Shown in pieces: positions 12,621 through 54,108 of a DNA stretch of 64,000 nt. Origin of the DNA: Ilex aquifolium. Taxonomy: Eukaryota > Streptophyta > Magnoliopsida > Aquifoliales > Aquifoliaceae. Within the stretch, counting starts at the first letter, position 1; every line of letters starts with the position of its first letter. The stretch covers positions 19,876,001 to 19,940,000 of the forward strand of contig OX637399.1 in assembly GCA_951799425.1 (NCBI GenBank). The letters run 5' to 3'. The notes under the pieces were generated by a model that ran no database searches, was not told the origin of the DNA, and was given only the letters and a program-made list of their open reading frames with translations. Made by a program: the position numbers and the translations under genes.

Positions 12621-15007
12621 CTAGATGTCCCACTCGGGATCCAAGTATTCCTCTAGTGAAGCCTCTCCATGGCCCGGCTCATTAGCACCGAGCTCCTCCT
12701 CTGGCACCAAATCTGAAAAAGGTTCAACTGTAGGGGTGAGCACGAAGCTCTGTAGAAAAATCCTCCCAAACCCAAACAAGGTTTAGAAAAGTATATAAAA
12801 CGGTAGGTCTCATTTCACCAACATATATAATTTTTGAAGTAAAACCAGGACATTTAAATAGATCTCAAGTTTAAGGAACATTAGTAATTGAATGATTAAG
12901 TAGAACCACTATACAGTTAACAAACCATATCCGAATATAATCCAATCCACCATACACTGTTTCCACAAGTTCTCGCGGAATCCCATACTTCCCCAAGACT
13001 ATTGTAGAAACCGTCTATGGTAGAATGAACAATGACCATTTCCAACTTTAAGCCATTTAGGAAGGGCGCCTTCCGATGCATTGTCCCATACCAATACATC
13101 GGCCAAGACGATCCAACCCATCATCCCATGTATATTGGTTCATCCCCGTACCATGTATGTTGATTGCTTCTCATGAATCCACCCAACGATTATACCTAGT
13201 CCACCAATTACAATCACAATCACAAGCACTTTAGGAAAGGGCGTCTACCATCTCACTGGCAGTGACGAGTCCCTTCCCAGGAAAAGTATATCATCCCTTG
13301 TTCGAACTCCAGTGAACGATAGTGGTCGCATTACCACATGACAACCCACTACAAGTGTTAGGAAACCATCACCCCCACTGGGATAGACTAACCTCTAACA
13401 CTCTACGGCATCTCTCGAAGGCAATCCAAGTCCCTCACAACAACCATACAAATGAGGAAACCAAAATATTCTCAAAAACCTCCAATTTTCTCAGGTAGTT
13501 GTACAAAGAGCAATATAAGAAAATGTACAAGAGATCATCCTAAATACCATTTTTGTTGTTCAATCTGAAACACTAAAGTTTTGAAATCAAGCACCTATAA
13601 GTAATCAAACTTTGGAATCATTACAAATGAATATTAAGCTTGGAGTATAAAGAATAAAGGCGCACCAAGCTTGAACATCACGGACAAAGGAGGAATTAAG
13701 ATTTAACGGAACAATCATGTATGGCAATAAATAACAAAGGACTATCAAGGTGTGAAATCAAGAACAAATGATTATGAAGCTTAGAGATCAAGACCAAAAG
13801 AAAACTCAAGTCTTGGAACCGAGGATAAAGAATATCAAGTATTGAATATCAAGCTTAGAAGTCAAAAGAAAGGAACAATCATATATTGAAATCAATAACA
13901 AAGGAGAAGTCAAGAGAAAAACACATCTCCCTTGAAGACTAGGGTTTGGCAAGAATCAAGGAGATTCAAGGGTTACCCAACAATCACAATATTTTCCACA
14001 TGGCATCAATTGCAAGAATAGCAAGAATTAAGGATTGGATAGCATACATATAACATTTAGAGTGAAAAGATACATATAAATAAACCTAGCCTCAATGTAA
14101 GATAATGGAAGAAAACCCCTACCTTTCTTCTTCCTAGGTGTTCTTGAAAACTTGAAGTTTTGATCTTCTTCAAAGTGCAAATCCTCCCTTGATCTTGTGT
14201 TTCCCCCTTTATCTCTTGTTTCTCAAAGCTTTCTAGGGTTGTAAATGGTGTATGGAGGCTAAAGGAGGCGTCCTTATGTATTTATACGGTGAAAATTGGC
14301 CTCTTGTGCGCGATTCTGCAACCCAGAGTTCGTAAGTCACGTTCGAACGTCATTGGCGTTCGAACGTTCGTCACTCCCAGTACTTTTGTTTTTCCATTAG
14401 ACAAAGAGTACTGGAACGCACTTACGTTCGAACGTTATTCACGTTCGAACGTCGATTCACATTCGAACGTCATTTCACGTTCGAACGGAATTCCTGTTTT
14501 TGCTGAAACTTCCAGTGCAGTTTTGGCCTATTTAGAGATTGATTTGGAAATTTTTCATGAGATATACTTTTGTAGCCCTAGATGTCTACTATCTACTGTC
14601 CAAGTTTCAGATCAATTGGATATAAGGATAAAAATTTATGACCAAAATACTAGAAGGTGTCCCAACTCCTTTTTACCCAAATTTTCTCTAAGTGTGTTTT
14701 CACTCCGGAATATTTCCTAACTTCCAATACATCTCATATTACCACTCCCAAGGTTGTTCGACGTTCCGGATTCAATGGACACCTTATTTTGACCTAAAAA
14801 TATTTAGAAATTCATCTAATCACCCTTTCCAAGTTTAAATGTCTTGGAAACTCAAACTTCCCAATCAATATGCATCTCTAGCATTTCTCTTACTATTACA
14901 ATCTATATAGTTCATTCTTACATCATTACACACATCCTCATTTTTTTACAACAATTATTTACTATATATCTATATACATATATAAAAGAAAAATACGGGG
15001 TGTTACA
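12621..15007 (-). repeat. Diverged Del-like LTR fragment
   Basis: The segment ends GGGGTGTTACA at 15007, which on the minus strand is a typical TGTAACACCCC LTR start. A TATAAATA box lies at 14279-14286 on the minus strand. Near 12730-12770 a stretch resembles the array LTR (GGGGTGAGCACGAAGC against GGGTGAGCACAACGCC). The other LTR end is missing because the array abuts it. It is probably the host LTR into which the array element originally inserted, but the second flank is outside the window. No coding region is seen. Confidence 0.6.
14341..14488. repeat. CGTTCGAACG palindrome cluster upstream of a TATA box
   Basis: TTCGAA cores, most within CGTTCGAACG, lie at 14342, 14359, 14427, 14444, 14462 and 14480, so neighbours are 17-18 bp apart. 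The nearest core is about 55 bp upstream, in the transcription direction, of the minus-strand TATA at 14279-14286. An AGTACT...AGTACT pair sits between the first two and the rest. Confidence 0.85.
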
Positions 15008-23190: not shown

Positions 23191-23462
23191 CGTTCGAACG
23201 CCAGATCCATGTTCGAACGTAGGAAGCTTATAGTACCTAAGGCTCTGCAGAGAACCAAAGTACTGGGAGCAAACTTAGTTCAAACACCAGATCCACATTC
23301 GAACTCCACTTACATATTCGAACGTCAAGAGCTTACAGTACTTTTCATTCTCTCCAGAAAACCAAAGTACTGGGAGCAACCTTAGTTTGAACGCCAGACC
23401 ACGTTCGAACGTACTTTTAAAAATCCTTATACCGTAGTTTGAACGTCATTCACGTTCGAACG
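23191..23462. repeat. GTTCGAAC palindrome pairs before ORF3
   Basis: Cores (some with one mismatch) lie in pairs at 23193/23212, 23298/23317, 23386/23404 and 23438/23455, each pair 17-19 bp apart. AGTACT-type inverted segments lie between some of the pairs. The last core ends about 15 bp before a TATA box. The minus-strand element has the same arrangement at the same place. Confidence 0.85.
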
Positions 23463-23475
23463 TTGGCTTTCTGGG

Positions 23476-23482
23476 TATAAAA
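23476..23482 (+). promoter_or_regulatory. Putative internal promoter TATA for ORF3
   Basis: TATAAAA in GGGTATAAAAGGC, 215 bp before the ORF3 ATG at 23691 and 15 bp after the last palindrome core. The younger element repeats the geometry (TATA at 43077-43083, ATG at 42859). Its activity is inferred. Confidence 0.5.
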
Positions 23483-23690
23483 GGCTAGATCGTCTTCTCC
23501 ACTTCAGAAAACGTCCCAACCCCTTTCAAAACTCAAACCCTAGGCTGCCCTTTCAACTACCTAAGCTTCAAAGCTTCTCTCCCTTCACTTTTTGCTCAAA
23601 AATCATTCACCCAAACCATTTTTCTCATCTAATCTCCTACTTTTAACCGAAAATTTCAGCCCATTCTTCCTCTAAAACCCCCAAATCAAA

Positions 23691-24741
23691 GATGCCTCCA
23701 AGAATGAAAATGCCCACTCAGCGAAAAGTGAATATGGTTAGCCAAGAGCCAAATTTTGTGTAAGAAACCATCGAGGAAAGGGATAGAAGGCCCCTGCTCG
23801 TCCGTCGATATGATCGTACTCGATTTCCCAGCATCCTCAAGGCCGATAGGTATGTCAATTTCTTTCAAAATCAATCTATTGTTTGTGAAAGAACCTTTGA
23901 ATTGCATCATTTTGCTGAGTTTGGAATTTTGGCGATTATGGAATCAAGAGGTTGGGAGAATTACTTGAGAAATGGAGGAGAAGCGGTGAAGGAGATTGTT
24001 AGGGAATTTTACTCCAATGCTGAGGTAGTGAATGGGGTGATAAACACGCATGTGAGGGGGATTCACATTAATGTGGATGAGGAGATTATCCTGGAGGTAA
24101 GGCCAGTACCACGGGTACTGAGGCCTAACTATCCACCGAGAAGGAAGTAAGTTTGGATGTAGTAGGGGTGGAATTGACGGGAATTGTGAACTTCAAGTGG
24201 GGGGGAAAATGATTTTTCAAGCAAGGAGAATTAACCAAAAAATACAAAATGCATAACTTGATTGTCGTTTCCAATTTTGCTCCACTTGGACGAAAGAATG
24301 AAATCCTTCCCGACATGGCTCGACTTTTGTATGCGATAGGAAAGAAACATGGCATTGATCTTCCTTCTTTGATCTTGTATGAGAAGAGAAACTCACTTCC
24401 CTTCGGAACATTAGTAACAGAGATTTGCATTGACTGGGGAGTGAAGATCAGACCAGAATGGGAAGTGCTTAAGCCAATGGGGTTTTTGAATAAAGTTTTC
24501 ATTTCGATGGAGTCAGGGTCACAGTGGAGGGCAAGCAACTAGGCAAGACATGCCGCCTGGACATGGCACTGATGAGGTGCAAGATGCCTTGGATGTCGAG
24601 GAAGAAATGGAGGCAGAACAGGCCCATGCTGAGACGGGTGACAGAAGGACTTTACGAAAGATCATGCTTAGCGTCGACGAGAAGCTATATGAGATTCTCC
24701 GTCGTTTGGATGGTGGAGCTGCTGGACCTTCGGGCACTTGA
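23691..24741 (+). pseudogene. Athila-like ORF3 remnant
   Basis: It begins MPPRMKMPTQR and aligns along its length with ORF3 of the younger element: LRNGGEAV, REFYSNAEVVNG, VRGIHINVDEE, VSNFAPLGRKNEILPDMARL and the acidic tail with TLRKIMLSVDEKLYEILRRL. From memory it resembles the 'putative plant transposon protein' domain common in plant genomes and the extra frame that Athila elements carry in the env position. I see no signal peptide or membrane segment in it. It is a fossil with a few breaks. Confidence 0.7.
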
Positions 24742-26947: not shown

Positions 26948-28799
26948 TGCTTGATCAAAACCGTTGTAGTTCCTAACCTCCTAATATCACCCCAAAATGT
27001 ATATACGGTGTATGTGTGAAGGGAGTGTCACTCTCCCTCGGAATGATGTGGGAAATAGGGCAACAGAATGGTGGTAATGAAAATGGAATGAATTGTACAT
27101 AATGGAATGTGCGAAATGTGTGTGTGCTGAACAAAAGTGCTCCGCAAGCGCAAAGAGTCTTTTGAATGTCGTGTTTTACTTGGAAAAGTATTCCAAGGTC
27201 GTCTCCTCAGGGAAGGAAAGTTCAAGTGTGTGAAGGTGATTTTGTCAAAATGGAAAAGTGTAAAAATCTTTTAGTTTGAGTTTTGTGAGTGAAGTTTGTG
27301 AATGAAAATGCAATGGAAAACAAGTATTGGCTAATCCAAAGAGGTCATTCCAATAGGAATCCCAAATCAACTCGAAGCCTTCCTCGAATAGAGCTTAGAT
27401 GAACGATTGATTCATGGGAAGCTAGGGACGAGATAGAGGTGAGGATCCAAGCATAACCCGTGACCAGGCCTACGGGATATCAAAGACTCACAATCGCATC
27501 CACTCTCAACCTAGTCAAACCGAACCATAGTACTCTGAGAGGAGGAATGAAAATGAGTTGAAGTGGCACTCCCAAGAGGAGTTCTCCCTTGGATTAACCA
27601 ACTGAAAATCTAGCTACTCATGAAAGCAAGAAAGACATGCATAATTTAAAGGGACATAATGAAGAAAGGAAACATTGAACTTAACTTAAACCAAGAAATC
27701 TTAAGCTATGAAGAAAAATATTCAATACCCATTTCAAAGTTTGAAAATGAAGAACTCAAAACAACAATGGTAGAATCTAGAATGCATAACTAAACTTGCA
27801 AAGCATTAGAAATAAATGACATTAAAGACAATAAATGAAGCTTACAAGATCCTTACAAAAGATTACAAGTGAAATGGGTGAAGACAATACAAAAATCTAA
27901 CTATTCATCTTCTTCCTCCTTGGACTACTCCTAAGCTTAGGTAGCCACCTCAAATGCTTGTGGAATGCTGAATATATGGAGAAGAACTCTGCATTTTCGT
28001 CCATGGAGGGTCCCCCTAGGTGTGTTCAGGCCTCCCATCAATGGTAGGTGAGTTGATGACCTTGGATAGGCTAGCCTGCAACCCACTATGGCAGCCCCCT
28101 TCTCTTCCATCCCCATTAATGCCAATGTCTCCAAAGTCAAGAAATTGTGTAAGGATGGCATGGTTATGTGTAGAATATGTCAGTGTAGGTGTGGGAGAAG
28201 TGTAGGTGGGCCCCCCAAGAAGTTGGAGAAGACTTGCAGGAGTTCTGGGAATTTTGGGCTGTTTCATCAGAGCATACCAGTACGGCGTACCGGTATGTCG
28301 AACTCTAGTAGGTAAATCGTACCGGTACGGCGTACCGGTACGCTTCTGCTCCAGACCAGTTTTCGTAGAATAGTCATAACTGTTGATCCAAATGTCTGAT
28401 TGAGCTGAAATTTTGACACAATATAGAAGACATCCAGATCTACAAATTTCATGTTTTTCAGTTTTTCCGATTCGAAGTGGATCATGGTCAAAAAGGAGGA
28501 AAACCGAGGTATTGCAACCAATTGGTGTGGGTGCTGCTGCCTTTGTTACCAAGCACCAATACCTCCTTAATTTCTTTCACTTTTAAGCCTCCAAATCCTC
28601 ATGTAATGTGTCCATGTCTTCACCACTCCTCCACACTTAGTTGCAAGGTTACAAAATCCATGATTTACGCTATAATTACCTGCAACATCGAAAATTCAAC
28701 ATTATTTATAAATTTGGCTAACTCTAAGTAATTAATTACAAAGTTGAGTTAAAATGCATGTAATGAGGCCATCAAATATACAATATTTTGTGATCATCA
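26948..28799 (-). repeat. 3' LTR of nested element (1852 bp)
   Basis: TGCTTGATCA...TGATCATCA ends. It is longer than its partner mainly because the palindrome block near 28270-28340 holds two pairs here against one in the other LTR. Confidence 0.87.
28270..28345. repeat. CGTACCGGTACG palindrome pairs in LTR
   Basis: ACCGGT-type cores lie at 28276 (one mismatch), 28289, 28321 and 28334, so each pair is 13 bp apart. The partner LTR has one pair (33316 and 33329), and the related LTR at 57443-59315 has two pairs 12 bp apart (58790/58802 and 58834/58846). Confidence 0.88.
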
Positions 28800-31112
28800 C
28801 ACCCCCCAACTTAAGCTTTGCTAGTCCCTAGCAAACAAAATGTAAAAAGCAAGCAAACAAAATAAACATATACTAATTCCGCAATTGCATTTAGCATATG
28901 CAATAAGCCTTTAAACCCCTAGGTGATCCCTAGTGGACGAGTTTGGTCTTGTGAAGGTTTCCAGTGAAGGTACCTACAAACTTCTTTTCCTCATATCCAA
29001 TATTTAAAATATATGCCCTTATCCTAACTAGCACTGGGATGTCAAAAACAACTTGCTCCGAACACCCGAACCAATCACACATGAGACACATTATAGCCTT
29101 AAATGCTATTCTAGAGTATCCACATACACATTCATTTTCAAACTCGTGTGTGTGTGTGAAATGGACATGTAATTTAAACATTTACACAACAGAGTTCACA
29201 TTTACTTGGTCTATCCAAATTCAGCTTCGATGCAAACTCACCAAGGGTGTCTCTCAACAATGAATCACGCTATGGTTATCCTCGTATGCTCTCCATGTGT
29301 ATATGTGAGGTAGAATCTTGTGCACAAAACAAAGTATGCTCACATATAACTCAAAAATGAAGTTCATGCATAAAAATGAAACAACTTTGGCATAATCTCA
29401 TGAAAGGAATGCTAGGGCATTAGATAACAAACCAACTTCTCTTTTTCTTTAAAAGTATGCATCTCCCATGCTTCTCTAGATCATTTAGGACTTTCACGGG
29501 TTATAATGGGGCCTTGGAGTGATATTGAGGCAAAAGAAATGAAGGATATAGGATAACAAAGAGGGTTGTTCCGAGTGAATGACCTTTATTTAAAAAAGAT
29601 CTCCCTTTTATGGGATTTGTAGGCTAACACCATCACTTCCTTTTTCTCTTTGATCATTCTTTCTTCCTTCACCCCTTTCTCTCCTTTTCTTGTATTTTTC
29701 ATTCTTTTCCGTTCAACTCTTTGAATTCAGCATCATTCATCCCTTTTTGTTGAGTTTCCGCCATACTTCCTTCTCTTTTATGATCACTCATACTTAGCAC
29801 TAGGAACAACCAAGGTGAGGTAGATTTTTATCTTTTTGCACTGGCTTGGTCACTTGTGTGGCATGGAAACGAATTTTCAATTAAGGCTCAACCATAGCAC
29901 TAGGGATAAAATTTTTACAAGAAAAAGGCTAAGGCTCAAAGCAAAACAAAGATGGCCTAAGATCAATTTCTAAATAAGCATGGGGGAGCATTATGCATTT
30001 CAAGACAAAGTCAATCAACTACCCAAATGCACTTAACCAAAACAAGCATAATGAGATTATTGAACAAATTTGAAATTTGAAAAATTGTTCCTTGAGTAAA
30101 TGTAAGTTCCCTCCAAACAAGGATTGACATTAAAGCTCACATGGGTTCTTACTCATCTCCACTATTCATGTCAAGCACTAAATGTGAACTCAATCCATAA
30201 ATTGAAAAAATTACAAGTTCATGGTGCACTTATGGTTGAGTTCAAAAGCAAACAAGTATGTGATATTCTTAGCAATAGGATAAACAAGTATGTGATATTC
30301 TTAGCAATAGGATAAACTTCTATAATGTGCTCATGTATTCAAAGTTCAAAATGTAGATCAAGTAATCACAAATCCCATAACAATTAGGGTAGGGGAATAT
30401 AGTTCAATATTGGATATTTTTCACCAAAAATTGTCCAAAATTTTAAAAATTCTCACATTTCTCATTATTCTATACAAAAATTCTATACAAAAAGTGGTGA
30501 AAAATGTAAATGGTGCACTTCACCCCCCAACTTGACCCATGCATTGTCCTCAATGCACAAGGAATCATGCAATGAGGAAAATGAAAGTAACATGGGAAAT
30601 GAGATACCCCCCCCCCCTTTTTTTTCTCTTTTTTTTGTTTAGACATATTAAAGGGAAAATGAAACACAAAAAAAACTTGTTTACACCCCCAAACTTAAAC
30701 TCGCACATGATATTGAATAAGATTGTTACGATGATGCTCAAAATGATTTGAGTCCAAATTAGAGAGAGGTAAACAAACTTCATGCTAAAATCTACACTAC
30801 AGCATCATGAAAATAAAAGTTAACAATAAAATAAATCTAACTACTATGTACTTGAAAGTAAAACAAAGAGGGCTCATGTCAATCCGGCTTCAATTCAGAT
30901 ATGAGCTTGCGCCCATTGATTTTTTTGATTTTAAAATTTTTTTTTTGTATAAATGTTCTTTCTATCCAATCTATCCAACAATATAAAGGATAATGATTCA
31001 AAAATCTCAACCAAACCGAGGTGTATGCAAGTTTATGCAATTCCAAGAATGGATTATGCAATTTATCTTTACAAGTTTCTCCACTCAACTCCATTTCAAT
31101 TCCCTCCCCAAG
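28800..31112 (-). other. Non-coding internal part of nested element
   Basis: It begins with the polypurine tract complement (CACCCCCCAACTT, 28800-28812). Stretches near 30140-30170 resemble 40310-40360 of the Athila-like element, and one more C-run/T-run lies at about 30607-30627. A 32-bp tandem duplication lies at 30250-30315. No convincing gene. Confidence 0.6.
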
Positions 31113-33794: not shown

Positions 33795-33799
33795 CTCAC

Positions 33800-33956: not shown

Positions 33957-35456
33957 TGATGCATAGTTAAAAGTGACATCTTACTATGCCTTTATGAGAT
34001 TAATTATTCATTGATGGTGTTCAAATGATAACATTTCAGGATAAGTAAAGTACAAGTGCTTAAAGGCAACAACATCACTCTTTCGAGTAGCACAAATATG
34101 TTTTTAAAGAGAATTCAAGAAAGAGGAGACAAGATTCCACGTTCGAATGCCACTTATACGTTTGAATGCCATCTTGAAATCATTGAAGATCTCCAGGAGA
34201 CTGCTAGGGAGATAAAACGAGGCTAGTTACTGTGGATGACAAAGTTGCATTAGCAACAACGTTCAAACTCCAACACCATTCGAACGCCCTTCAAAGAATA
34301 AATGCTTTTACGTTTGAACGCCAAGTAACGTTCGAACGTAAATCCCAGACAGAATGCAGGCAAATTATATTTCCACCCGGATTTTGTGGCATAGGCTTGG
34401 ACTTTAAGCACCTAGGTAAGTCTTTTACCTCCCTCCCTTGTCTATAAATACCATCCCTTGGAACTTGTTGAAGATCATCTTTTGGCAGCGGGAAAAACCT
34501 TCCAAAAGTAACTAGTTTTCTTCTACTTTCATCATTAGTTTCATTAGCTTCCTTTTTAAAGCTTCTTTCTTCACTTAGAGGATTGAACCTCTCTCACCTT
34601 TCTAGCTATCTTGTAGCTTTGAAAGGTGGGTAGTGTTTCACTCATTCTTTATCGGAGATTGGCTAATTGTTTTGGTAAACGTTAACTTGTAATTAAAAGT
34701 TCCTCTACTTTGAGGGATGGGAATCACTCACTTTTCTAGCTTTCTCAAAGCCATGAAGAGTGAGTATTTTCTCATTCACTCTTTAGTAAGAGGTGATGGA
34801 CATGTATATTATTGGTCGGAAGTTATATTTGTGCATTTCATTTATGCTTAATGATTTATCTTTCTATTGCTTATTGAATGATTGAATGCATCTAGCAAAG
34901 CTAAAGTACTTTGTACAACCATGAATCTCTTATAGACAAGTTAACTCTTGACATAGGAGAATTCATTGGTTCTTTGCAAGTACTCAAGCTAGGTCTTCAT
35001 GACAACTTCTCAATCTTCATTGTCATTATTTTTTAACTAAGAATGGAGTAATTTAAAAATTGCTGGATGATTTGTAGGTGTGCTTGCTTGTTTGTAGACG
35101 GGTTAAGTCCTGGCACTAACAATTCTTTCAAATCTCTACAAATACTTCGGAGTCATGCTCTCAATTCATATAGTCCATCTTTATCCTCCGATTAACTTAC
35201 TATTGACTTAGGGGTTAATTGAGTGTTTACAAAGCACAAATATAACAACCGGATGAATAACTACATGTCCAGATTCTCGAGCTAAAGGGTGACTCTTTCA
35301 TTTAAGAGAATCTTATATTTTGTCCAGAAAATTCTATAATCATTATAAATTCAAAATACCAACATTAGTTCCCTGTGGATTCGACCCCAGACTTAACCGG
35401 ATTATAACTACAACTTGATCACATGCACTTGGCTGTAGACATTTCAGATCAAGTCA
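33957..35456 (+). repeat. 3' LTR of plus-strand Athila-like element (1500 bp)
   Basis: It starts TGATGCATAG after the purine tract and ends GATCAAGTCA. Its U5 end (CCCTGTGGATTCGACC...GCACTTGG) matches the young element's LTR. TATA (CTATAAATA) lies at 34442-34450. Decayed GTTCGAAC-type palindromes lie upstream of it at about 34137-34337. The 5' partner LTR is absent, so no date can be given. Confidence 0.8.
34442..34450 (+). promoter_or_regulatory. TATA box of plus-strand Athila-like LTR
   Basis: CTATAAATA, roughly 100 bp downstream of the last palindrome-like core (near 34330). The young element's LTR has a similar distance. Confidence 0.55.
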
Positions 35457-36987: not shown

Positions 36988-38303
36988 ATAACTGATGGCT
37001 TGATCCAAAATGTATACACCCAAGTGCAGGCGGTCAAGCTGTAGTAATAATCCGGTTTGAGTCCGGAGTCGAATCCACAGGGAACTTTTGATGATATTTC
37101 TAAGGCAAGCAGTGGTAGAGACCTTTTGATTGTAACTTTTGAGATTTGCTGTGAGTTATGAGTTTTCATGGACAGAATATAAGATTCTTTCCAAGAGGAT
37201 TTTCTTAACAAAATAGGGGATAGATGCTAATTAAAAAGAGTCACTCTTTAGTGCAAGGATCTGGACATGTAGTCAGTTATCCGGTTTGTCATAATTGTGC
37301 TTGATAACTCAATTAACTCCCGTGTCAACAGCAAGTCAATCGGAAGATAAAGATGGATTGTGAGAATTAATAACATGATTCCGATGTCTTTCTAGAAGTT
37401 TACAAGAATTGCCTGTGCCGAGACTTAACCCGTCTACAAACAAGCAAGTGTTTCTACAAGACATCCAATCATGCTATTAATATTCCATTCTTTCAATGAA
37501 GTACAATAAGGGGGAAGATTGAAGGGTAGTCATGAGGATCTAGCCGGGGTACTTGCCTTGAACTGATGAGTCTTTCTATGCAGGAGTCATCCATGTCATA
37601 GAAAGAGCTCACAGTTATACAAAGTACCTTAGCTTTGCTAGATGCAATCAATCATCCGATAACAAGAAGAAATAAACGTTAAGCATAAAAAACATTGCAC
37701 AAATATGATTCCCGGATAACTTATACATGCCCTTCTCCTCTTACTAAAGAGTGAATGAGAAACTACTCACTCTTCATGGCTTGGGTAAAGCTAGAAAAGT
37801 GAGTGATGCTCATCCCTCCAAGTGGAGAACTTTAAAAGATAAAGTAACAACAAACGCGGAGCCAATCTTTAACAAAGAATGGGTGAATCACGTTCCACCA
37901 TTCACGGCTTTAATAAAGCTCTAGAAAAGTGGAAGAGTTTCACTCTTCTAAGAAAGAAAGAAGCTCAAGCAATGGAAGTGAAATGCATGAACAATAAAAG
38001 TAGAAGAAAACTAGTCACATTTGGAGGGTGGCTTCCTCAACCAAGAATTGGAGGGTTGCTTCCTCAACCAAAATGTGAGCTATCTCTCTTATATGCATGA
38101 GAAATGAAAGCATAAACATAAGCATAAGCACAAAACTACTGTTATAACAAGCAAGAGATGTTGGACTAAAGCCAAACTAATCTCTAAAATAAAGACTTCA
38201 TACAAGGAAAAATGAGTTAAATCTACAATGAGAGTGGGAGTCTAAGCCTCCATCAACTTTCCTACCTCCTACTATGGCTCTTCTAGCTCTCCAACAAGGG
38301 GAG

Positions 38304-38311
38304 TATTTATA
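38304..38311 (-). promoter_or_regulatory. TATA box of young element LTR
   Basis: TATAAATA in GCCTATAAATACTCC on the minus strand. The palindrome cluster starts about 100 bp upstream. The partner LTR has the same site near 51610-51617. Confidence 0.65.
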
Positions 38312-38408
38312 GGCAAGAGGAGGAGACAGGGGGGGGGGGGTGAAAGAATAGTGTTTGCCGCCCAAGTCCAAGTGAACAGTCAACAACTCTGCTGCCATTC
38401 TGTGGATA

Positions 38409-38774
38409 ACGTTCGAACGTGAGTTGGCGTTCGAACGTTATTTCTGTTTTTGCACTGAGGGCGTTCGAACGTTGACTGCCGTTCGAACGTTTCTTCTGTT
38501 TTTGAACTGAGGGCGTTCGAACGCCAGATCTGCTCTGACCCCTTTCACTCGAGTGATCTGTTGGTCTTCTGTGAAGTTCAGTTCCAACTCTCTGTAGTGG
38601 TCTGGTCTTCCATCAACTCAAATGCACGTTCGAACGTGAGTTGGCGTTCGAACGTGACACTCAAGTACTTCAGAGCTCCAGTCTTCTTTCCTAACTGCAA
38701 CACGCCTTCTCTTCAGCAGTTGAGTCTGCTATAGTACAATATGGACGTTCGAACGTGAGTTGGCGTTCGAACGT
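38409..38774. repeat. Nine CGTTCGAACG palindromes in the LTR U3
   Basis: TTCGAA cores lie at 38412, 38430, 38464, 38482, 38516, 38629, 38647, 38748 and 38766. Four pairs are exactly 18 bp apart, and the steps 38430 to 38464 and 38482 to 38516 are both 34 bp. Most are perfect 10-12-bp palindromes of the ACGTTCGAACGT type. All lie upstream of the LTR TATA. The partner LTR repeats them at about 51715-52078. Confidence 0.92.
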
Positions 38775-38958
38775 TCTGGTTGTGCTCCAAGCTTCTCCAA
38801 TTTTGGGCTCTAATGTACTGGTGCTGCATCCAAGTGTGGTACTTGTTGTTCTTGGATCCTTGTTCAGTTTAGGGCCTGAAATGACATCACTTAAACTCCA
38901 TTAAAGTACAATTAGTCTTAAAATGTCATAATAATATGTCAACTTTAAGTACTAATCA

Positions 38959-41046: not shown

Positions 41047-41997
41047 TGATGAGAACTAAGGTGGGCCTACTCTTAAGATCCTTTGCAAGTCCAGATGGGC
41101 CAATTACAAGATCAACAGCCAAGATGATCAAGGAAGCAATTCAAGGAGTGTTGCAATCCCCTTGGGATGAAGTTAGCAAGAGGCCAACACTCAATATGGG
41201 CTTGAAAGAAGGAGAATCAATTTTGATCCACTTGATCCAAGCTATGGAAGACATGAAGACATGACTTAGAGATAGGGCCTTTTGTTGTTAAGACTTTCAA
41301 TTTGTTTAAAGAATTTTTATTTTTTAGTTTAGAATAAGTGGGTTTGAGGATGCTTAGACCACATATGTCTTATTATTTTATTTGGACTAGGGTTTAGAAT
41401 AAGTACTGTAGCACGGTACTATTCATGCTACAGTACCGTGACACTATTCACAAATTTTAGTTTTTAGTTATTCCTATTTAGATTAGGATTTGTTTCCTTA
41501 GTAGATTAGGAGATTTGTTATCTTAATAGATTAGGATTTGTTTCATTAGTTGATTAGGATTTATTTCATTAGTAGATTAGGATTTGTTTCTTTAGTATAT
41601 TAGGATTTGTTTTCCTTAGTAGATTAGGAATTTTATTTGTAATGGCTAGCCTATAAATAGGCGTCTAAATCAATGAAAAGGTAGATTATTATCTCAATAT
41701 GCTTTGAGAGCATTGTCTCTATGGTTCTTTGAAGAACTTTTCGAACTTATCGGGATTTCCCGTGGCGTTCACCAACGACTTATCAAACGGTTTTCCACCA
41801 CTGTTTGTGGCGTCTTCCTTATACCAAGGTTCTTGATTCGCATCAAACAACGGGTTGAGGTCATATATACCAAGGTTCTTGTTTGTCGTAAACAACGGGT
41901 CGAGGTTTTCCATCCATAGACTTGAGTTTGGCTTTCTTGGGTTGGTTTTCCAATATTGTTGTTGGGTCTCAAAGCAAGTCTATTGGGGTTCACATCA
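41047..41997 (+). mobile_element. Solo LTR (951 bp) inside ORF3
   Basis: TGATGAGAAC...GGTTCACATCA ends with a perfect 5-bp target duplication CCGCT (41042-41046 and 41998-42002). It contains a plus-strand TATA (CTATAAATA, 41651-41659), an 11-bp inverted repeat upstream of it, and about seven imperfect 25-bp repeats based on TAGATTAGGATTTGTTTC (about 41470-41640). Its first 210 bp read as DGPITRSTAKMIKEAIQGVL, resembling the C-terminal end of gypsy polyproteins, so in its parent element the pol frame probably ran into the 3' LTR. It must be younger than the host element. Confidence 0.85.
41403..41436. repeat. 11-bp inverted repeat upstream of solo-LTR TATA
   Basis: GTACTGTAGCA (41403-41413) and TGCTACAGTAC (41426-41436) are perfect inverted copies. 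The sequence between and after them also contains an overlapping CGGTACTATTCA-like direct repeat. Confidence 0.85.
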
Positions 41998-43076
41998 CCG
42001 CTGGGCCGCCACTATGACTTTGGCTTCTCCGGAAGGAAGACTTGTTCAGTGGCCCCATTGGCTTTTGGATTTCCATCTCGGGCTTCACCCTCACCCCATG
42101 CTCTGTGCACATTTCAGTCACCAAAGTAGCAAAAGGGAGTGCACTCCTCTTTACATCACACCCCTTCTTCATTTCACTCAAGATGAGAGAGGGGAGGTCA
42201 ATGCTATGTCCTTTGCCAATGGCATACAGAAGTCGGGCCATGTCGGGTAAAATCTCATTCTTTCTTCCTACGGGAGCGAAGTTAGACACCGCAATCAAAT
42301 TCATCATTTTATACTTGTCGGTGAGCTCCCCTTGCTTTAAAAATCTCCTCCCTGTCCATGAAAAGTCAGTTATCCCCGTCAATTCCTTTCCTACCACATT
42401 CATTGCTACATCCTTCTTTGGTGGGTAGGTAGGATTTTGCACTCTAGGTATTTCTTCCCTTATTTTTACAATATATGCTTCGTCCACGTCAATGTGGGTA
42501 CCCCTAACATATGTCCGGATTGCGCCGTTGATGATCTCAGCGTTGGAGTAAAACTTCCGCACCAAGTCAACAACGGCGTCTCCACCATTCCTCAAATACC
42601 AGACCCACTTCCTCCTCTCCATCTCCTGCCTTATTCCAATCCCAGCAAAGTCATCAATTACAACATCTCTCTCACAAACAATTGCATGCTTATGGTAAAA
42701 TTTTTCATACCTTTCAGCCTTTAAGGCATTGGGAAATCTGGTCCTATCATATTTCTTTGTCCTTTGCCTTCCTTCCCTTTCTTCAATCACTTCTTCTACA
42801 ATGTTTGGGTCTTGGTTCACTGGTGGAGCACGCCTGACAGGGAGTTTCATCCTTGGCATGGCGTTCGAACGTGGGTTTTGATTTGGGAGGGTCCTGAAAA
42901 GTACTGGAACTTAGGGTTCTAGGTCTGAGATTAATGATTTTGATGTGGGGAGGGGTTAGGGAAGGTCGAATTTGGGTATTCTTGGGGAATGAGGGCAAGT
43001 TGAGGTCTGTGGAGTGAAAATGAATTCTAGGGTTTTGAAAAATTTGGGGATTTTGGCTGAAAACGACGAACCAGGC

Positions 43077-43083
43077 TTTTATA
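43077..43083 (-). promoter_or_regulatory. Putative internal promoter TATA for ORF3
   Basis: TATAAAA in GGCTATAAAAGCC on the minus strand, 218 bp before the ORF3 ATG and 15 bp downstream of the nearest palindrome core. The geometry at 23476-23482 in the older element is the same. Confidence 0.55.
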
Positions 43084-43095
43084 GCCTGAGTTGTA

Positions 43096-43397
43096 ACGTT
43101 CGAACGTTTGTGACGTTTGAACATGGGTAGAAGGACTTTAAACAGATCGTTCGAACGTGGTATGGCGTTCGAACGTGGTGAGCTCTTAGTACTTTTGTGT
43201 TTCTGTCAGAGGCCAAAGTACTGTAAGTTCTCTTCGTTCGAACGGTCTATTGGCGTTCGAACGTTAATCTCGTTTGAACGGTCTATTGGCGTTCGAACGG
43301 ATTGAGTTCCTAGTACTTTTAAGTTCCAGCAGAAGCTTTATTAGAGGCTGAGTACTGTAAGCAGTCAACGTTTGAACGTTACCTGGCGTTCGAACGT
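43096..43397. repeat. GTTCGAAC palindrome pairs before ORF3
   Basis: Cores (some with one mismatch) lie in pairs at 43099/43116, 43150/43168, 43237/43256, 43273/43292 and 43371/43389, each pair 17-19 bp apart. Between pairs lie AGTACTTT (43188-43195) and its inverted copy AAAGTACT (43215-43222), a module also found near 14380 and 23335. Confidence 0.9.
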
Positions 43398-44655: not shown

Positions 44656-47600
44656 TCAGGTTGGAGTAGATATTTCCTGACCCGATCCACTGGAGTGTCG
44701 GCAGGCGCGAATTTCGGAGGAGTACTCTGGTTCCATTAAAAGAATGGTTTCCACATTTCTAACAAAATCCTCCAAAAATGGTTTTAACCTCTGACCATTA
44801 ACATTAAAATTATTACCGTTTGCTGGGTTTTCCACTTCAACTGCTCCGTGTTCAAACACCTTTCTGACAATGTAAGGCCCAGTCCATCTTGATTTTAACT
44901 TACCAGGAAAGAGGCGGAGTCTTGAATTAAATAGCAAGACTTTTTGAGATGGCTCAAAAGATTTCCGCACAATGTGTTTGTCATGAAAAATTTTCATCCT
45001 GGTTTTAGCGATCTTAGCATTTTCATATGCTTCATTTCTCAATTCCTCCAATTCATTTATCTGAAGTTTCCTTGTTAGCCCAGCCTTGTCTAAGTCAAAA
45101 TTCATTGCTTTAATGGCCCAGTATGCCCTATGTTCCAATTCCACAGGCAAGTGACATGGCTTTCCATAGACTAATCGATAAGGAGACATGCCCAAAATTG
45201 TTTTAAAAGCAGTTCGGTATGCCCAGAGCGCATCAGTTAGTCTTAATGACCAATCTTTGCGATCTGGATTTATAGTTTTTTCCAAAATTAATTTGATCTC
45301 CCGATTAGCTAACTCAGCTTGTCCACTGGTCTGTGGGTGATAAGGGGTTGCAATTTTGTGAAAAATCAAGTATTTTTTCATTAAATTCCAGAAGGGACGA
45401 TTGCAAAAATGAGCACCCCCATCGCTTATGATTGATTTCGAAATTCCAAACCGGGACAAAATATTTTCTTTCAAAAATTTGATCACTGTTTTGTGATCAT
45501 TGTTTCGGCATGAAATTGCTTCAACCCATTTGGATACATAGTCTACAGCCACTAAAATGTATAGATAGCCAAAGGAAGGGGGAAATGGTCCCATAAAATC
45601 GATGTCCCAACAGTCAAAAATTTCAATTACCAGAATGGGGTTTAAGGGCATCATATTTCTTTTAGAAATGTTTCCCAACCTTTGACACCTATCACAAGTT
45701 AAACAAAAGGCATGGACATCTTTGAAAAGTGTGGGCCAGTAAAATCCACACTGCAATATTTTTGCAGCTGTTTTTCTTGATGAAAAGTGGCCACCGCATG
45801 CTTCAGAATGACAAAATGTTATTACCTGGTTACTTTCATGAGCAGGGATGCAATGTCTTATGATTTGATCTTTACAGTACTTGAATACGTAAGGATCCTC
45901 CCAAAAGAAGTTACGAACCTCCCTCAGAAATTTCTTTTTGTCCAACATGGTAAAAGATGGAGGGAGTGTACCAGTAGCAAGAAAGTTAGCAATGTCTGCA
46001 TACCATGGTGTCTTATCAATCATGAACAGTTGTTCATCGGGGAATTTCTCATTGATTGGCAGTCCATCCTCATGAAATTCATAGGTTAGTCTGGACAGAT
46101 GATCTGCCACCACATTCTCGACACCTTTCTTGTCCTTAATGACAAGATCAAACTCTTGGAGCAAAAGTATCCATCTCAAGAGTCTTGGTTTAGCGTCCTT
46201 CTTTGTGAGCAAAAATTTTAGAGCTGCATGGTCAGTGAATACAGTAACAGAAGAACCAACAAGATAAGAACGGAATTTTTCCAGTGCAAAAACTACAGCA
46301 AGCAATTCTTTCTCAGTTGTTAAATAATTCATTTGGGCATCATTCAAAGTTTTGCTTGCATAGTAAATCACATGGGGTTTCTTATCTTTTCTTTGTCCCA
46401 ATACAACACCTACAACAAAATCACTTGCATCACACATTAGTTCAAAAGGAAGATTCCAGTCAGGAGGTTGCATTATTGGTGCAAAAATTAACATGTCTTT
46501 TAGCTTGTCAAAGGCTTTTTGGCATGCTTCATTCCAATCAAATATTACATCCTGACTTAGGAGGTGGCACATTGGTTTTGCTATGGTACTGAAATCTTTT
46601 ATGAATCTCTTGTAGAACCCTGCATGTCCTAGGAATGATCGAACATCCTTTACAGTCTTAGGGGCAGGCAAATTTCCAATCAAATCAATTTTTGTCTTGT
46701 CAACTTTCATGCCTTCAGACGACACGATGTGACCAAGAACAATGCCCTGTGTTACCATAAAATGGCATTTTTCCCAATTGAGCACTAGGTTGGCTTCCTT
46801 ACATCTGATCAGTACTTTCTCCAGATTGGTTAAACACAAATCGAAGGACCATAGACAGAGAAGTCATCCATAAATACTTCCAAAATTTTTTCAACCATAT
46901 CACTGAACAAGCTTAGCATACATCTTTGGAATGTTGCAGGAGCGTTACAAAGTCCAAATGGCATCCTTTTGAATGCAAAGGTGCCAAAGGGGCATGTGAA
47001 GGTTGTTTTCTCCTGATCATCTAGGGCTATCTCAATTTGGTTATACCCTGAATATCCATCCAAGAAACAGTAAAATGCATGGCCTGCAATTCTCTCCAGG
47101 ACTTGGTCAAGAAACGGGAGAGGAAAATGATCTTTTCTAGTGACCAAATTGAGTTTTCGATAATCAATGCACATTCGCCATCCTGTGACGACTCGAGTTG
47201 GTACTAGTTCATTTGCATCCATTTTGACCACTGTGACCTCAGATTTTTTTGGCACAACTTGGGTTAGACTGACCCATTTACTATCTGAGATAGGGAAGAT
47301 TATCCCTGCATCCAAGAGTTTGAGTACCTCAATTCTCACAACTTCCTTCATGTGAGGGTTCAGTCGTCGCTGCATTTGACGAGAGGGTTTTGAATCCTCT
47401 TCAAGGTATATGGCATGATTGCAGATTAACGGGCTTATACCTTTCAAGTCAGCGATGATCCATCCAATGGTACTTTTATGACTTCGAAGAACTTCAAGCA
47501 ATTTAGACTCTTGCAAGTCTGTGAGTTTAGATGAAATTACCACTGGATATGACTCATTCTCTCCTAAGAATGCATATTTGAGGTCAGATGGGAGAGGTTT

Positions 47601-47813
47601 CAATTCAGGCTTTGGTGGGCTAACACTTGATGAGACTGGCTTTGTGCCTCTTGGTGAAATTTCTTCGAATTTGAGTGCCCATGTTTCAACAGTATGAGTA
47701 GGGTCACTTGGTGGATTTGGGTCATCATCTGTTATTTCTGATGATATGAGTTCTAACAGAGATGATTCAGCAGGATCCTCACAGAATGTATCATCCAGAT
47801 GTTCCTGTATCAA
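44656..47813 (-). pseudogene. pol region: RT, RNase H and integrase
   Basis: The RT lies at about 47280-46560: VVPKK start, WRMCIDYRKLN, FPLPFLDQVLERIAG, FGLCNAPATFQRCM and the catalytic FMDDFSVYG near 46850-46880. RNase H lies at about 46450-46190: [37 protein letters not shown] and [11 protein letters not shown]. The integrase has an HHCC zinc-binding end (HCIPAH...[11 protein letters not shown], about 45860-45670) and an acidic core ([49 protein letters not shown]). It ends in [20 protein letters not shown]. No chromodomain is seen, which fits the Athila/Tat group and not chromoviruses. All domains are present and similar to active relatives; one or two breaks interrupt reading. Confidence 0.9.
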
Positions 47814-47827
47814 AGATTCTATGGAGT

Positions 47828-49033
47828 TTACTTCCCTTTCTCCTTTTCCTCTTCTGGATGTTTAGCAATATTGAAAATGTTCATTTCGAGAGTCATATTC
47901 CCAAAAGTTAATTTCATGACTCCATTCCTGCAATTGATTAAAGCATTGGAAGTTGCTAGGAATGGTCGACCAAGAATGACAGGAATTTGGTTCTCCGAAT
48001 TTATTGATGGTTGAGTATCCAGAACAATGAAGTCAACAGGGAAGACAAAACTATCTACTTGGACAAGCACATCTTCAACAATCCCTCTGGGGGTTTTGAC
48101 AGATCTGTCAGCCAACTGGAGTGTGATACAAGTGGGTTTAAGTTCACCCAAACCCAACTGCTGATAGACAGAGTAGGGTAACAGATTAACGCTGGCTCCA
48201 AGGTCTAACAAAGCTTGTTCAATTCTGAAGTTCCCAATGATACATGAGACAGTCGGACACCCTGGGTCTTTGTATTTTGGAAGGGTTTTCTGTTGGAGAA
48301 GAGCACTAGCTTGTTCCGTTAGGAAAGCTCTTTTTTGGACATTCTGGCTTCTCTTGACTGTGCACAAATCTTTTAGAAACTTGGCATAAGACGGGACTTG
48401 TTTGATTGCATCCAGAAGTGGGATGTTGATATTTACTTGCTTAAAAAGCTCATAAATTTCAGGCTGATTTTTCACTTTCTGTTTGGTTCTGAGTCGATGA
48501 GGAAACGGAGTCGGAATGGGATACGAAGGTTCCTTTTTCTCAGAGGGTTCTGGCTCTTGTTCAATCACAGGCTCAGGGTCTTTCTCAATTGGTTCAGGTT
48601 CAGATGATGGATTGGCTGGGCTTGACTCAGGTCTTGGCTTGGGAATGAGTATGTCTCTGATTGTTTTGTCAATCACTTTGCCACTTCTTAGTGTCGTGAC
48701 AGCTTGGGCTTGGTCTTGGGTGTTTCCTGTTGTTGAAGGGTTCCCTACATGGAATTGGCCTTGTGGTTGCTTTGGTTGGGCAGGAAACTTTCCCTTTTCG
48801 TGTGTGACCATGGATTGAGTCAACTTTTGGATGTGGCTTTTAAGATCCTCAAAAGATTGAGTGGTCTGGGTTTTGAAATCAGTGAAAGCCTGTGTGGAAT
48901 TATTGTTATAATTCATTTGGCTTTGCATGAACTGATTTAATGTGTCCTCAAGGTTCCTCTTTTGTGGTGGTTGGTATGGTTGATATGCAGGAGGTCCTTG
49001 AGGTGGTGGGTATGGCCCTTGTTGTTGGTTCAT
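47828..49033 (-). CDS. Protease region of gag-pol
   Basis: A Pro/Gln-rich start (QQQGPYPPPQGPP) and a Pro/Glu-rich linker are followed by a retropepsin-like domain with the active-site signature ALLDLGASVNLLP near 48200-48240 and the later VILGRPFLAT, normal for aspartic proteases of Athila/Tat elements. It would cleave the polyprotein. It lies between gag and RT. Confidence 0.82.
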   Translation of the reverse strand: MNQQQGPYPPPQGPPAYQPYQPPQKRNLEDTLNQFMQSQMNYNNNSTQAFTDFKTQTTQSFEDLKSHIQKLTQSMVTHEKGKFPAQPKQPQGQFHVGNPSTTGNTQDQAQAVTTLRSGKVIDKTIRDILIPKPRPESSPANPSSEPEPIEKDPEPVIEQEPEPSEKKEPSYPIPTPFPHRLRTKQKVKNQPEIYELFKQVNINIPLLDAIKQVPSYAKFLKDLCTVKRSQNVQKRAFLTEQASALLQQKTLPKYKDPGCPTVSCIIGNFRIEQALLDLGASVNLLPYSVYQQLGLGELKPTCITLQLADRSVKTPRGIVEDVLVQVDSFVFPVDFIVLDTQPSINSENQIPVILGRPFLATSNALINCRNGVMKLTFGNMTLEMNIFNIAKHPEEEKEKGK

Positions 49034-49042
49034 GGGTATTGG

Positions 49043-50182
49043 TTATGTGTTCTTCCAACTGAAGTTAGGGTGATTTCGCCACCCTGGATTGTATGTTTCA
49101 AAATATGGGTTGGAGTAGGGCTTGTTGAAGTTGGAAACGGCATGTGTTTGTTCCAACAAGACTTCTTTGAATGCTGGGATGGTGGGACACTCCCCAGTAG
49201 GGTGTCCTGTTAGCGCACAGATTCCACACACTTGCTCAATGGAAGGGCTAACATCAACTTGATGGACTTTCTTCATCTCTAAAGCTTCGAGCTTTCGAGA
49301 CAATGTGGACATTTTTGCTCTCAAGTCATCATCCTCTCTCAAGACATATTTTCCTCCTTGGGAATTAGATGGTCTGGCTTCTACAGTGGTAGGGGAGGCT
49401 GAGTCCCACATCTGAGAACTATCAGATATGGTGTCGAAAAAATTGAATGCCTCCTCCGGACTTTTTCCCATGAATTCTCCTTGGGCCATCATTTCGACAA
49501 ACTGACGTAGTCTAGAGGGTAAGGAGTCATAGAAAAATCCTACCAAAGTCCAATTTTCAAAAGCATGATGTGGGAAAGATTGGAGCAGATCTTTGAATCT
49601 CTCCCAACTTTGATAAAAAGTTTCTCCTTCTTTGACCGCAAAATTCATGATTTGCCTTTTTAGTGCATTTGTGCGGTGTAAAGGGAAAAACTTTCTAAAA
49701 AATTCATTTTGCAATGCTTGCCAATTGGGTATTGAAAAAGCCTTTAAAGAATTTAACCATTGTTTGGCTCTATCCCTCAAAGAGAAAGAAAACAATTTCA
49801 TTTTGGCCAATTCAGAATTGTCTTGAAATGTTCCACACACTTCTTCGAAATCTTTTATATGCAGATATGGATTTTCTGCATCCAATCCATGAAACACGGG
49901 CAATAACTGCACCATCCCCGGCTTTACAGTAAAGAGGGGAGCATTTTCAGGAAAAATAAAACAAGAGGGGACACTATTTCTTGTGGGATTCAAGTAATCC
50001 CGCAAAGTTCGAATGTTAGGGACCTCCTCCTCTCTCATAGGGACTTCTCCATTTCTTTCATTATTTGCCATACTACCCTCACAAGAGTCTGTTACTGATC
50101 TAGGTGAATTAGGTTCAGGCTGATTCACTGACTCACACGATTCTGCCAGCAAATTTTGGAAGTGAGGAGTGCCCTCAGTCAT
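49043..50182 (-). CDS. Gag (capsid and zinc knuckle)
   Basis: The frame of 379 residues starts MTEGTPHFQNLL, just inside the primer site. A Retrotrans_gag-type capsid region is recognisable: FHGLDAENPYLHIKDFEEVC, FSFSLRDRAKQWLNSL, FFRKFFPLHRTNALKRQIM and ESWERFKDLL-like wording (QSWERFKDLLQSFPHHAFENW). A coiled segment (RKLEALEMKKVHQVD) and one zinc knuckle CGICALTGHPTGEC (49187-49228) follow. It would form the particle and bind the RNA. The gag fragment at 59316 is a relative. Confidence 0.9.
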   Translation of the reverse strand: MTEGTPHFQNLLAESCESVNQPEPNSPRSVTDSCEGSMANNERNGEVPMREEEVPNIRTLRDYLNPTRNSVPSCFIFPENAPLFTVKPGMVQLLPVFHGLDAENPYLHIKDFEEVCGTFQDNSELAKMKLFSFSLRDRAKQWLNSLKAFSIPNWQALQNEFFRKFFPLHRTNALKRQIMNFAVKEGETFYQSWERFKDLLQSFPHHAFENWTLVGFFYDSLPSRLRQFVEMMAQGEFMGKSPEEAFNFFDTISDSSQMWDSASPTTVEARPSNSQGGKYVLREDDDLRAKMSTLSRKLEALEMKKVHQVDVSPSIEQVCGICALTGHPTGECPTIPAFKEVLLEQTHAVSNFNKPYSNPYFETYNPGWRNHPNFSWKNT

Positions 50183-50299: not shown

Positions 50300-52261
50300 T
50301 GATGGCTTGATCCAAAATGTATACACCCAAGTGCAGGCGGTCAAGCTGTAGTAATAATCCGGTTTGAGTCCGGAGTCGAATCCACAGGGAACTTTTGATG
50401 ATATTTCTAAGGCAAGCAGTGGTAGAGACCTTTTGATTGTAACTTTTGAGATTTGCTGTGAGTTATGAGTTTTCCTGGACAGAATATAAGATTCTTTCCA
50501 AGAGGATTTTCTTAACAAAATAGGGGATAGATGCTAATTAAAAAGAGTCACTCTTTAGTGCAAGGATCTGGACATGTAGTCAGTTATCCGGTTTGTCATA
50601 ATTGTGCTTGATAACTCAATTAACTCCCGTGTCAACAGCAAGTCAATCGGAAGATAAAGATGGATTGTGAGAATTAATAACATGATTCCGATGTCTTTCT
50701 AGAAGTTTACAAGAATTGCCTGTGCCGAGACTTAACCCGTCTACAAACAAGCAAGTGTTTCTACAAGACATCCAATCATGCTATTAATATTCCATTCTTT
50801 CAATGAAGTACAATAAGGGGGAAGATTGAAGGGTAGTCATGAGGATCTAGCCGGGGTACTTGCCTTGAACTGATGAGTCTTTCTATGCAGGAGTCATCCA
50901 TGTCATAGAAAGAGCTCACAGTTATACAAAGTACCTTAGCTTTGCTAGATGCAATCAATCATCCGATAACAAGAAGAAATAAACGTTAAGCATAAAAAAC
51001 ATTGCACAAATATGATTCCCGGATAACTTATACATGCCCTTCTCCTCTTACTAAAGAGTGAATGAGAAACTACTCACTCTTCATGGCTTGGGTAAAGCTA
51101 GAAAAGTGAGTGATGCTCATCCCTCCAAGTGGAGAACTTTAAAAGATAAAGTAACAACAAACGCGGAGCCAATCTTTAACAAAGAATGGGTGAATCACGT
51201 TCCACCCTTCACGGCTTTAATAAAGCTCTAGAAAAGTGGAAGAGTTTCACTCTTCTAAGAAAGAAAGAAGCTCAAGCAATGGAAGTGAAATGCATGAACA
51301 ATAAAAGTAGAAGAAAGCTAGTCACATTTGGAGGGTGGCTTCCTCAACCAAGAATTGGAGGGTTGCTTCCTCAACCAAAATGTGAGCTATCTCTCTTATA
51401 TGCATAGAAATGAAAGCATAAACATAAGCATAAGCACAAAACTACTGTTATAACAAGCAAGAGATGTTGGACTAAAGCCAAACTAATCTCTAAAATAAAG
51501 ACTTCATACAAGGAAAAATGAGTTAAATCTACAATGAGAGTGGGAGTCTAAGCCTCCATCAACTTTCCTACCTCCTACTATGGCTCTTCTAGCTCTCCAA
51601 CAAGGGGAGTATTTATAGGCAAGAGGAGGAGACAGGGGGGGGGTGAAAGAATAGTGTTTGCCGCCCAAGTCCAAGTGAACAGTCAACAACTCTGCTGCCA
51701 GTCTGTGGATAACGTTCGAACGTGAGTTGGCGTTCAAACGTTATTTCTGTTTTTGCACTGAAGGCGTTCGAACGTTGACTTCCGTTCGAACGTTTCTTCT
51801 GTTTTTGAACTGAGGGCGTTCGAACGCCAGATCTGCTCTGACCCCTTTCACTCGAGTGATCTGTTGGTCTTCTGTGAAGTTCAGTTCCAACTCTCTGCAG
51901 TGGTCTGGTCTTCCATCAACTCAAATGCACGTTCGAACGTGAGTTGGCGTTCGAACGTGACACTCAAGTACTTCAGAGCTCTAGTCTTCTTTCCTAACTG
52001 CAACACGCCTTCTCTTCAGCAGTTGAGTCTGCTACAGTGCAATATGGACGTTCGAACGTGAGTTGGCGTTCGAACGTTCTGGCTGTGCTCCAAGCTTCTC
52101 CAATTTTGGGCTCTAATGTACTGGTGCTGCATCCAAGTGTGATACTTGTTGTTCTTGGGTCCTTGTTCAGTTTAGGGTCTGAAATGACATCACTTAAACT
52201 CCATTAAAGTACAATTAGTCTTAAAATGTCATAATAATATGTCAACTTTAAGTACTAATCA
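50300..52261 (-). repeat. 5' LTR of young Athila-like element (1962 bp)
   Basis: Partner of 36993-38958, with the same ends, the same TATA and the same palindrome cluster (about 51715-52078). Most of the few differences fall in the palindrome-bearing U3 half. Confidence 0.92.
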
Positions 52262-53582: not shown

Positions 53583-54108
53583 CTCTTGTCACACCCCAAC
53601 TCCAAGGGCATGATCGGCCGTGAACCATAGATCCATAACCTATGGAACACGTAAGGCTAACAATAAACTATTAACACTAAATTGATCTTATGTCAATATG
53701 TCAAAGTCAACATACCTAAACCTGTTTGCCCCAATTATCCAAACAAGTAAAGATGGCTATACGATATATGCTACGGAGGTCACAACGCTATTAGTCCCCA
53801 ATCAATTCCCTGAGTCCGCTACTGACACTCCAATCGTTTACCTAAAAAAAAATATTATTTTGAAAACATGAGCTAAAAAGCCCAGTGAATGGAAAAGCAT
53901 GCATATTCAAAGTGGCTGAAAAATATTTTTGGCATACGACATGTAAATCAAAGATTTGGAAAAATAACTTCATCAAGATAACCAATTTCTCAAGAATAAC
54001 ACAATCGGATTCCAGCAAGAAATCATACCACAATGGTGAATCATATCATAATGGTGGAGACTGTACGATATCCAATAATTGATGGGAACCAAATACCAAA
54101 TGCCAGAA

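Follow-up and report, generated by a model that had tools for sequence, protein, structure and literature searches.

ORF3, an extra sense frame carried by LTR retrotransposons of Ilex aquifolium, is probably served by an internal Pol II promoter of its own, with initiation predicted near a CA step downstream of a TATA box. We give this reading a probability of about 0.8. How a frame placed beyond pol is expressed in plant Ty3 elements is an unsettled matter, for which splicing, read-through and an internal promoter have each had their proponents, and the present case makes the question directly testable, because the parts expected of a promoter are all visible in it and are tied to the LTR by a motif of fixed spacing.

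Two such elements lie on opposite strands of the window, by which we mean the whole stretch of 64,000 nucleotides that was analysed (assembly GCA_951799425.1, contig OX637399.1, positions 19,876,001 to 19,940,000). Their parts, including the modules that precede ORF3, are the following.

50300..52261, minus strand: 5′ LTR of the younger element, with nine near-palindromes (four pairs and one single)
44656..50182, minus strand: gag, protease, RT, RNase H and integrase of the younger element, in four separate frames
43097..43396, minus strand: palindrome array of the younger module, five pairs with a spacing of 17–19 bp
43076..43083, minus strand: TATA box TATAAAAG of the younger element
42860..43054, minus strand: predicted ORF3 mRNA leader of the younger element, its start placed 29 bp past the TATA
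41990..42859, minus strand: ORF3 of the younger element, 289 aa, matching PF20167 (Transposase_32, 'putative plant transposon protein') with E 5.1e-23
36993..38958, minus strand: 3′ LTR of the younger element, with the palindrome layout of its 5′ LTR
23191..23462, plus strand: palindrome array of the older module, four pairs around CGTTCGAACG
23476..23483, plus strand: TATA box TATAAAAG of the older element
23506..23691, plus strand: predicted ORF3 mRNA leader of the older element, its start placed at the CA step 30 bp past the TATA
23692..24377, plus strand: ORF3 of the older element, decayed, its similarity to the younger ORF3 extending to 24377
33958..35456, plus strand: 3′ LTR of the older element, with three near-palindrome pairs

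The two LTRs of the younger element are 99.0% identical over 1966 columns in a self-comparison of the window. Its domains follow the order of Ty3 (gag, protease, RT, RNase H, integrase), and ORF3 sits in sense orientation between integrase and the 3′ LTR. The bases after the 5′ LTR read TGGTGCCGTTGCCGGGGA, which may be a tRNA-Asp primer site. Because of the Ty3 domain order, the presence of ORF3 and this putative primer site, we would tentatively place the element in the Athila lineage of Ty3/gypsy. For the related elements Diaspora and Calypso an Asp primer site is given in the relevant passages of PMC1142308. The older element retains pol from about 19270, the module, the decayed ORF3 and the 3′ LTR; the self-comparison of the window returned no 5′ LTR for it. 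Two stretches inside it, 26948–28800 and 31988–33795, each of about 1.85 kb, 93% identical and related to 57443–59303, are probably a nested insertion. Elsewhere in the window, 54106–54595 is a head-to-tail duplicate of a 245-bp unit, with 92% identity.

A sequence-only reading of this DNA had taken paired palindromes, a 15-bp gap, a TATAAAA box and an ATG for one ordered module, and had seen the same order with nearly equal distances in the younger element. Both statements stand. In the older element the decamers are paired at 23191/23210, 23296/23315, 23384/23402 and 23436/23453, exactly or nearly (at most two mismatches); TATAAAAG follows 13 bp past the last decamer, that is, 15 bp past its TTCGAA core, and the ATG of ORF3, at 23692, comes 216 bp after the TATA. 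The palindromes of the younger module run from 43387 down to 43097; TATAAAAG is again 13 bp away (15 bp from the TTCGAA core) and the ATG, at 42859, is found 224 bp after it. In both modules the members of a pair are spaced by 17–19 bp, and 34 bp separates the last two pairs. Such an accumulation is far from what chance gives: the older module has 8 near-palindromes in 526 bp, where 2000 dinucleotide shuffles of it averaged 0.16 and reached at most 2, and the younger one has 11 in 564 bp, where as many shuffles averaged 0.35 and reached at most 3. Conservation of the palindrome blocks, 0.75–0.85, is no higher than that of the preceding 100 bp (0.83). Between the palindrome pairs there are also AGTACT hexamers, mostly as inverted-repeat pairs, at 23259–23371 and 43188–43356 in the modules and at 14379–14412 in the LTR of a second family, described below; their GTAC core presumably recalls SPL-type sites.

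At 29 or 30 bp after the TATA, CA is the only pyrimidine–purine step between +26 and +35 in 30 of 30 copies, although it does not make a unique start step, because another CA occurs at +24/25. The composition of the strand changes at about the same place. In 22 copies (20 chosen by their TATA and the two of the window), the fraction of G before +20 is 0.15–0.24, about 0.20, apart from a single bin of 0.09; it is 0.02 in the bin from +20 to +40, and 0.03–0.11 thereafter. Such a drop is a strand-specific change at the place where a transcript would be expected to start. The predicted leader of the older element is likewise poor in G and has no upstream ATG, and 27 of the 30 copies have an ATG-free leader: three ATGs were counted in total against 26.5 expected from shuffles, a scarcity that is not specific to the leader because the stretch upstream of the TATA is short of ATGs as well (17 vs 57 expected). 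In the youngest subfamily, one further palindrome lies at 42862–42871, 12 bp before the ATG of ORF3, and a near-match to it was found in all 20 copies chosen by ORF3; it would enter the transcribed leader.

The arrangement recurs as a trait of the family (800 Mb in 103 contigs for the genome-wide pattern searches). The pattern CGTTCGAACG-N{8,25}-TATAAAA has 353+352 sites, while the backwards pattern has 5+4; among the matches listed, which are part of the 705 sites, the spacer is exactly 13 bp in all but one. ORF3 starts with their TATA were found at 105+119 sites, against 0+0 for the control, which is to be read as a count and not as a ratio. ORF3 begins 210–226 bp past the TATA in 22 of 22 copies, comprising 20 TATA-chosen loci and the two of the window. 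As these first 20 loci had been chosen by their TATA, two further samples were taken, one by the palindrome only and one by ORF3 only. For the palindrome sample, 100 listed sites out of 15,227 matches to a 12-mer gave 39 clusters on contig C1, all of which were fetched; they sort into 25 LTRs of the kind seen here, eight ORF3 modules and six LTRs of the second family, with none left over. All eight modules have TATAAAA 214–226 bp before the ATG and 13 bp after the last palindrome. The second sample consisted of 20 copies spread through 135 scored matches to the ORF3 protein, and those matches are close kin of the younger copy, being the best 135 of 6413 candidates; in 20 of 20, TATAAAAG is at −217 to −226, 13 bp after a palindrome, and in one of them ATA replaces the ATG.

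TATAAAA is thus intact in 30 of 30 copies (the 28 fetched regardless of TATA and the two of the window), and no other of the 339 overlapping 7-mers taken from the upstream part of the younger copy is kept in all of them, the median 7-mer being kept in 15. Restricting the comparison to the ten most diverse copies gives four invariant 7-mers, TATAAAA being one of them. None of these copy counts is a count of independent cases, because the copies are related, many clusters of the palindrome sample represent LTR and module of one and the same element, and the samples overlap, six of the eight modules being also among the TATA-chosen 20.

ORF3 is conserved as a protein and is under selection. Across the 15 pairs formed by six open frames, dN/dS is 0.07–0.18, with close pairs giving the highest ratios; the five pairs that involve copy L013 are saturated (dS >1.7). 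The younger ORF3 of the window is shorter than the open frames of two other copies (368 and 372 aa), and the older one is broken, its first stop coming after 23 codons. By hydropathy ORF3 is not envelope-like: in three proteins, one of them the short frame of the window, no transmembrane segment was found, the maximal Kyte–Doolittle mean over 19 residues being 0.89–0.93. An AlphaFold2 model built on an alignment of 13 sequences was unusable (mean pLDDT 46.7, no residue at or above 70), and a search of solved structures with the ORF3 sequence gave one match, with E 0.8, which we took as chance.

The paired motif of the module is also that of the LTR. Pair spacing of 17–19 bp and the 34-bp gap between pairs are common to both, with the TATA standing at another distance: TATAAATA is found 95 bp past the last palindrome in the younger 5′ LTR, 98 bp in the younger 3′ LTR and 104 bp in the older 3′ LTR. 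In 23 of the 25 LTRs of the palindrome sample the array is followed by TATAAAT, at a distance of 62–117 bp from the last palindrome and, in 20 of the 23, of 93–95 bp; the other two gave no TATA match within 250 bp.

A third promoter, in the LTR of a second, short family with another primer site, carries the motif as well.

14279..14487 (within 12640–15002), minus strand: palindrome cassette of the second-family LTR, with gaps of 18, 18, 17, 68 and 17
14286–14279, minus strand: TATAAATA of the second-family LTR

This LTR begins TGTAACACCCC and shares with the module not only its palindromes but also its AGTACT stems (z 4.9 and 6.1); its TATA comes 52–53 bp after the array in six of six LTRs. 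The member of the family found at locus L068 is short: its LTRs, of about 2.3 kb, enclose about 2.4 kb of internal sequence, and it has a frame resembling a zinc-knuckle gag remnant and the primer site TGGTATCAGAGC. In the text of PMC2829016, TATCAGAGC is given as complementary to Met tRNA, and the primer site of L068 appears to be of this Met type. Three promoters, which otherwise differ largely in sequence, thus have one paired motif in common, and the simplest reason for this would be a common trans-acting factor. The cassette may have reached the second-family LTR by recombination between elements, and its presence there suggests that one regulatory input is shared among, or stolen by, retrotransposons of this genome. 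A search of the literature for the motif letters GTTCGAAC together with retrotransposon returned papers of which none, by title, concerns the motif. The window holds still another set of palindromes, CTACCGGTAG, present six, six and five times in three tandem units of about 4.3 kb (1173–1407, 5486–5720 and 9813–10047) at a spacing of 42–43 bp, each unit having TGGTATCAGAGC on the minus strand; these arrays are of similar design, with different letters.

Put together, these features would fit the following scenario. A sequence-specific factor would bind the paired CGTTCGAACG palindromes of the module, and the TATA 13 bp downstream of them would set initiation some 29–30 bp further. The outcome would be a short mRNA with a G-poor leader of about 185–197 nt, in which the first AUG would, in most copies, be that of ORF3. 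Acting on the paired palindromes upstream of the LTR TATA, the same factor would activate genomic RNA and ORF3 mRNA together; to judge from the shared motif and spacing, it is rather likely that one factor serves both LTR and module. That ORF3 itself should be this factor seems unlikely to us. We hold as doubtful, too, the closed circuit of foamy-virus type that can be drawn by analogy, where ORF3 would bind the CGTTCGAACG pairs and activate, or de-repress, both promoters, the Met-primer elements being parasites of the system; if it were true, these short elements would have taken the binding sites without the protein.

Splicing offers another route to ORF3: its mRNA might arise by a splice joining the LTR leader to an acceptor ahead of the frame, the TATA and palindromes being incidental or of minor importance. 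There are precedents for it, as PMC2829016 cites, in the passages concerned, predicted splice acceptors for the env-like genes of BAGY2 and Athila, while PMC4977677 mentions an intron beside the start sites of Athila6A. In the sequences at hand TTTCAG occurs about 35–37 bp before the ATG in both copies of the window, and 20 of the 22 aligned copies have in common a YAG column at +76, preceded by 12 bases of which 9.7 are pyrimidines. No acceptor column, however, is common to all 22; TTTCAG near the ATG is absent from other subfamilies, and copy L021 lacks any YAG between TATA and ATG. Moreover, splicing needs no TATA: it leaves unexplained both TATAAAA as the one invariant 7-mer and the step in composition at the expected start, and we regard it as improbable. 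The array might also be there for structure, silencing or recombination, linked to ORF3 by descent and without a role as promoter. Plant Ty3 elements often have tandem repeats between pol and their 3′ LTR, and the module is rich in CpG, with observed/expected ratios of 1.36 (younger) and 0.97 (older) vs 0.33 and 0.37 in gag-pol or pol parts. Yet the array stands upstream of a TATA in each of three contexts (8/8 modules, 23/25 LTRs and 6/6 second-family LTRs, counted as clusters), at distances from it that are typical of the context, with a fixed pair spacing and, in the modules, an invariant TATA, all of which makes a role of this sort very improbable.

It could be argued, finally, that the module arose when a piece of U3 was duplicated or recombined, carrying the LTR promoter inward; decamer, pair spacing and inter-pair gap would all be inherited in this way. 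Once the palindromes are masked, however, U3 and module show no residual similarity (z −0.7 to 0.8 in four comparisons covering both elements), whereas U3 against U3 and module against module reach z 17.6 and 16.9; the comparison of clusters, with a threshold of 120 bp, likewise showed no match between U3 and module outside the palindromes. The distance to the TATA, 95–104 bp in the LTRs of the window vs 13 bp in the module, speaks against it too. A duplicated U3 as the origin of the module is disfavoured by these alignments, and we consider it highly improbable. Because the masked sequences do not align, the module is no copied U3, and what it has in common with the LTR is a grammar of binding sites. 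The sequence-only reading, which proposed an internal promoter copying the palindrome signature of the LTR, is therefore retained in part: an internal promoter sharing motif and spacing with the LTR is the reading best supported, while that of a duplicated LTR promoter is abandoned.

The same reading had deemed such an arrangement unusual. It is less so than it seemed, in view of three precedents, the 'ENV ORF promoter' of Athila6A, the palindromic boxes of Sireviruses and the accessory gene of Grande. For Athila6A of Arabidopsis, PMC4977677 names an 'ENV ORF promoter' and refers to an internal promoter region, its authors stating that they defined start sites, frames and an intron for the consensus element. 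As is presumed for our case, this is an Athila element with an internal promoter serving an extra frame; the differences are that the description in PMC4977677, in its passages on Athila6A, does not include a palindrome array, a motif shared with the LTR or the position of the promoter, and that the Arabidopsis frame is called ENV, whereas ORF3 matches PF20167 and has no hydrophobic segment.

In the Sireviruses, which are Ty1/copia elements, PMC2829016 describes high-copy palindromic boxes before the LTR TATA, more of them 5′ of ENV, and CpG-rich islands; in its passages on the matter the boxes are offered as support for an internal promoter, and the promoter itself is said not to have been conclusively identified. 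What both systems have in common is the placing of high-copy palindromic boxes at two sites, ahead of the LTR TATA and 5′ of a downstream frame. The elements studied here differ in being Ty3, in having the core CGTTCGAACG where that of Sireviruses is mostly CGG-CCG, and in showing in their sequence a TATA at a set distance, together with a start step and a leader.

For Grande, a maize element, we know of no motif shared with the LTR. Its accessory gene, cited in PMC11963269 as having its own promoter, is similar to ORF3 in lying, as an additional gene, between pol and the 3′ LTR, but the passage in question lists it among antisense frames, while ORF3 is in sense orientation. Foamy viruses, with their LTR promoter, internal promoter and transactivator Tas, present, in the accounts we drew on, two promoters under common control, one of them internal, which is what we would expect here; there is no relation by descent, so that they supply at most a working analogy, DNA binding by ORF3 being hypothetical. 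What the present elements show, next to these systems, is what appears to be a full set of the sequence parts of an internal promoter, assembled in a Ty3 element and tied to its LTR.
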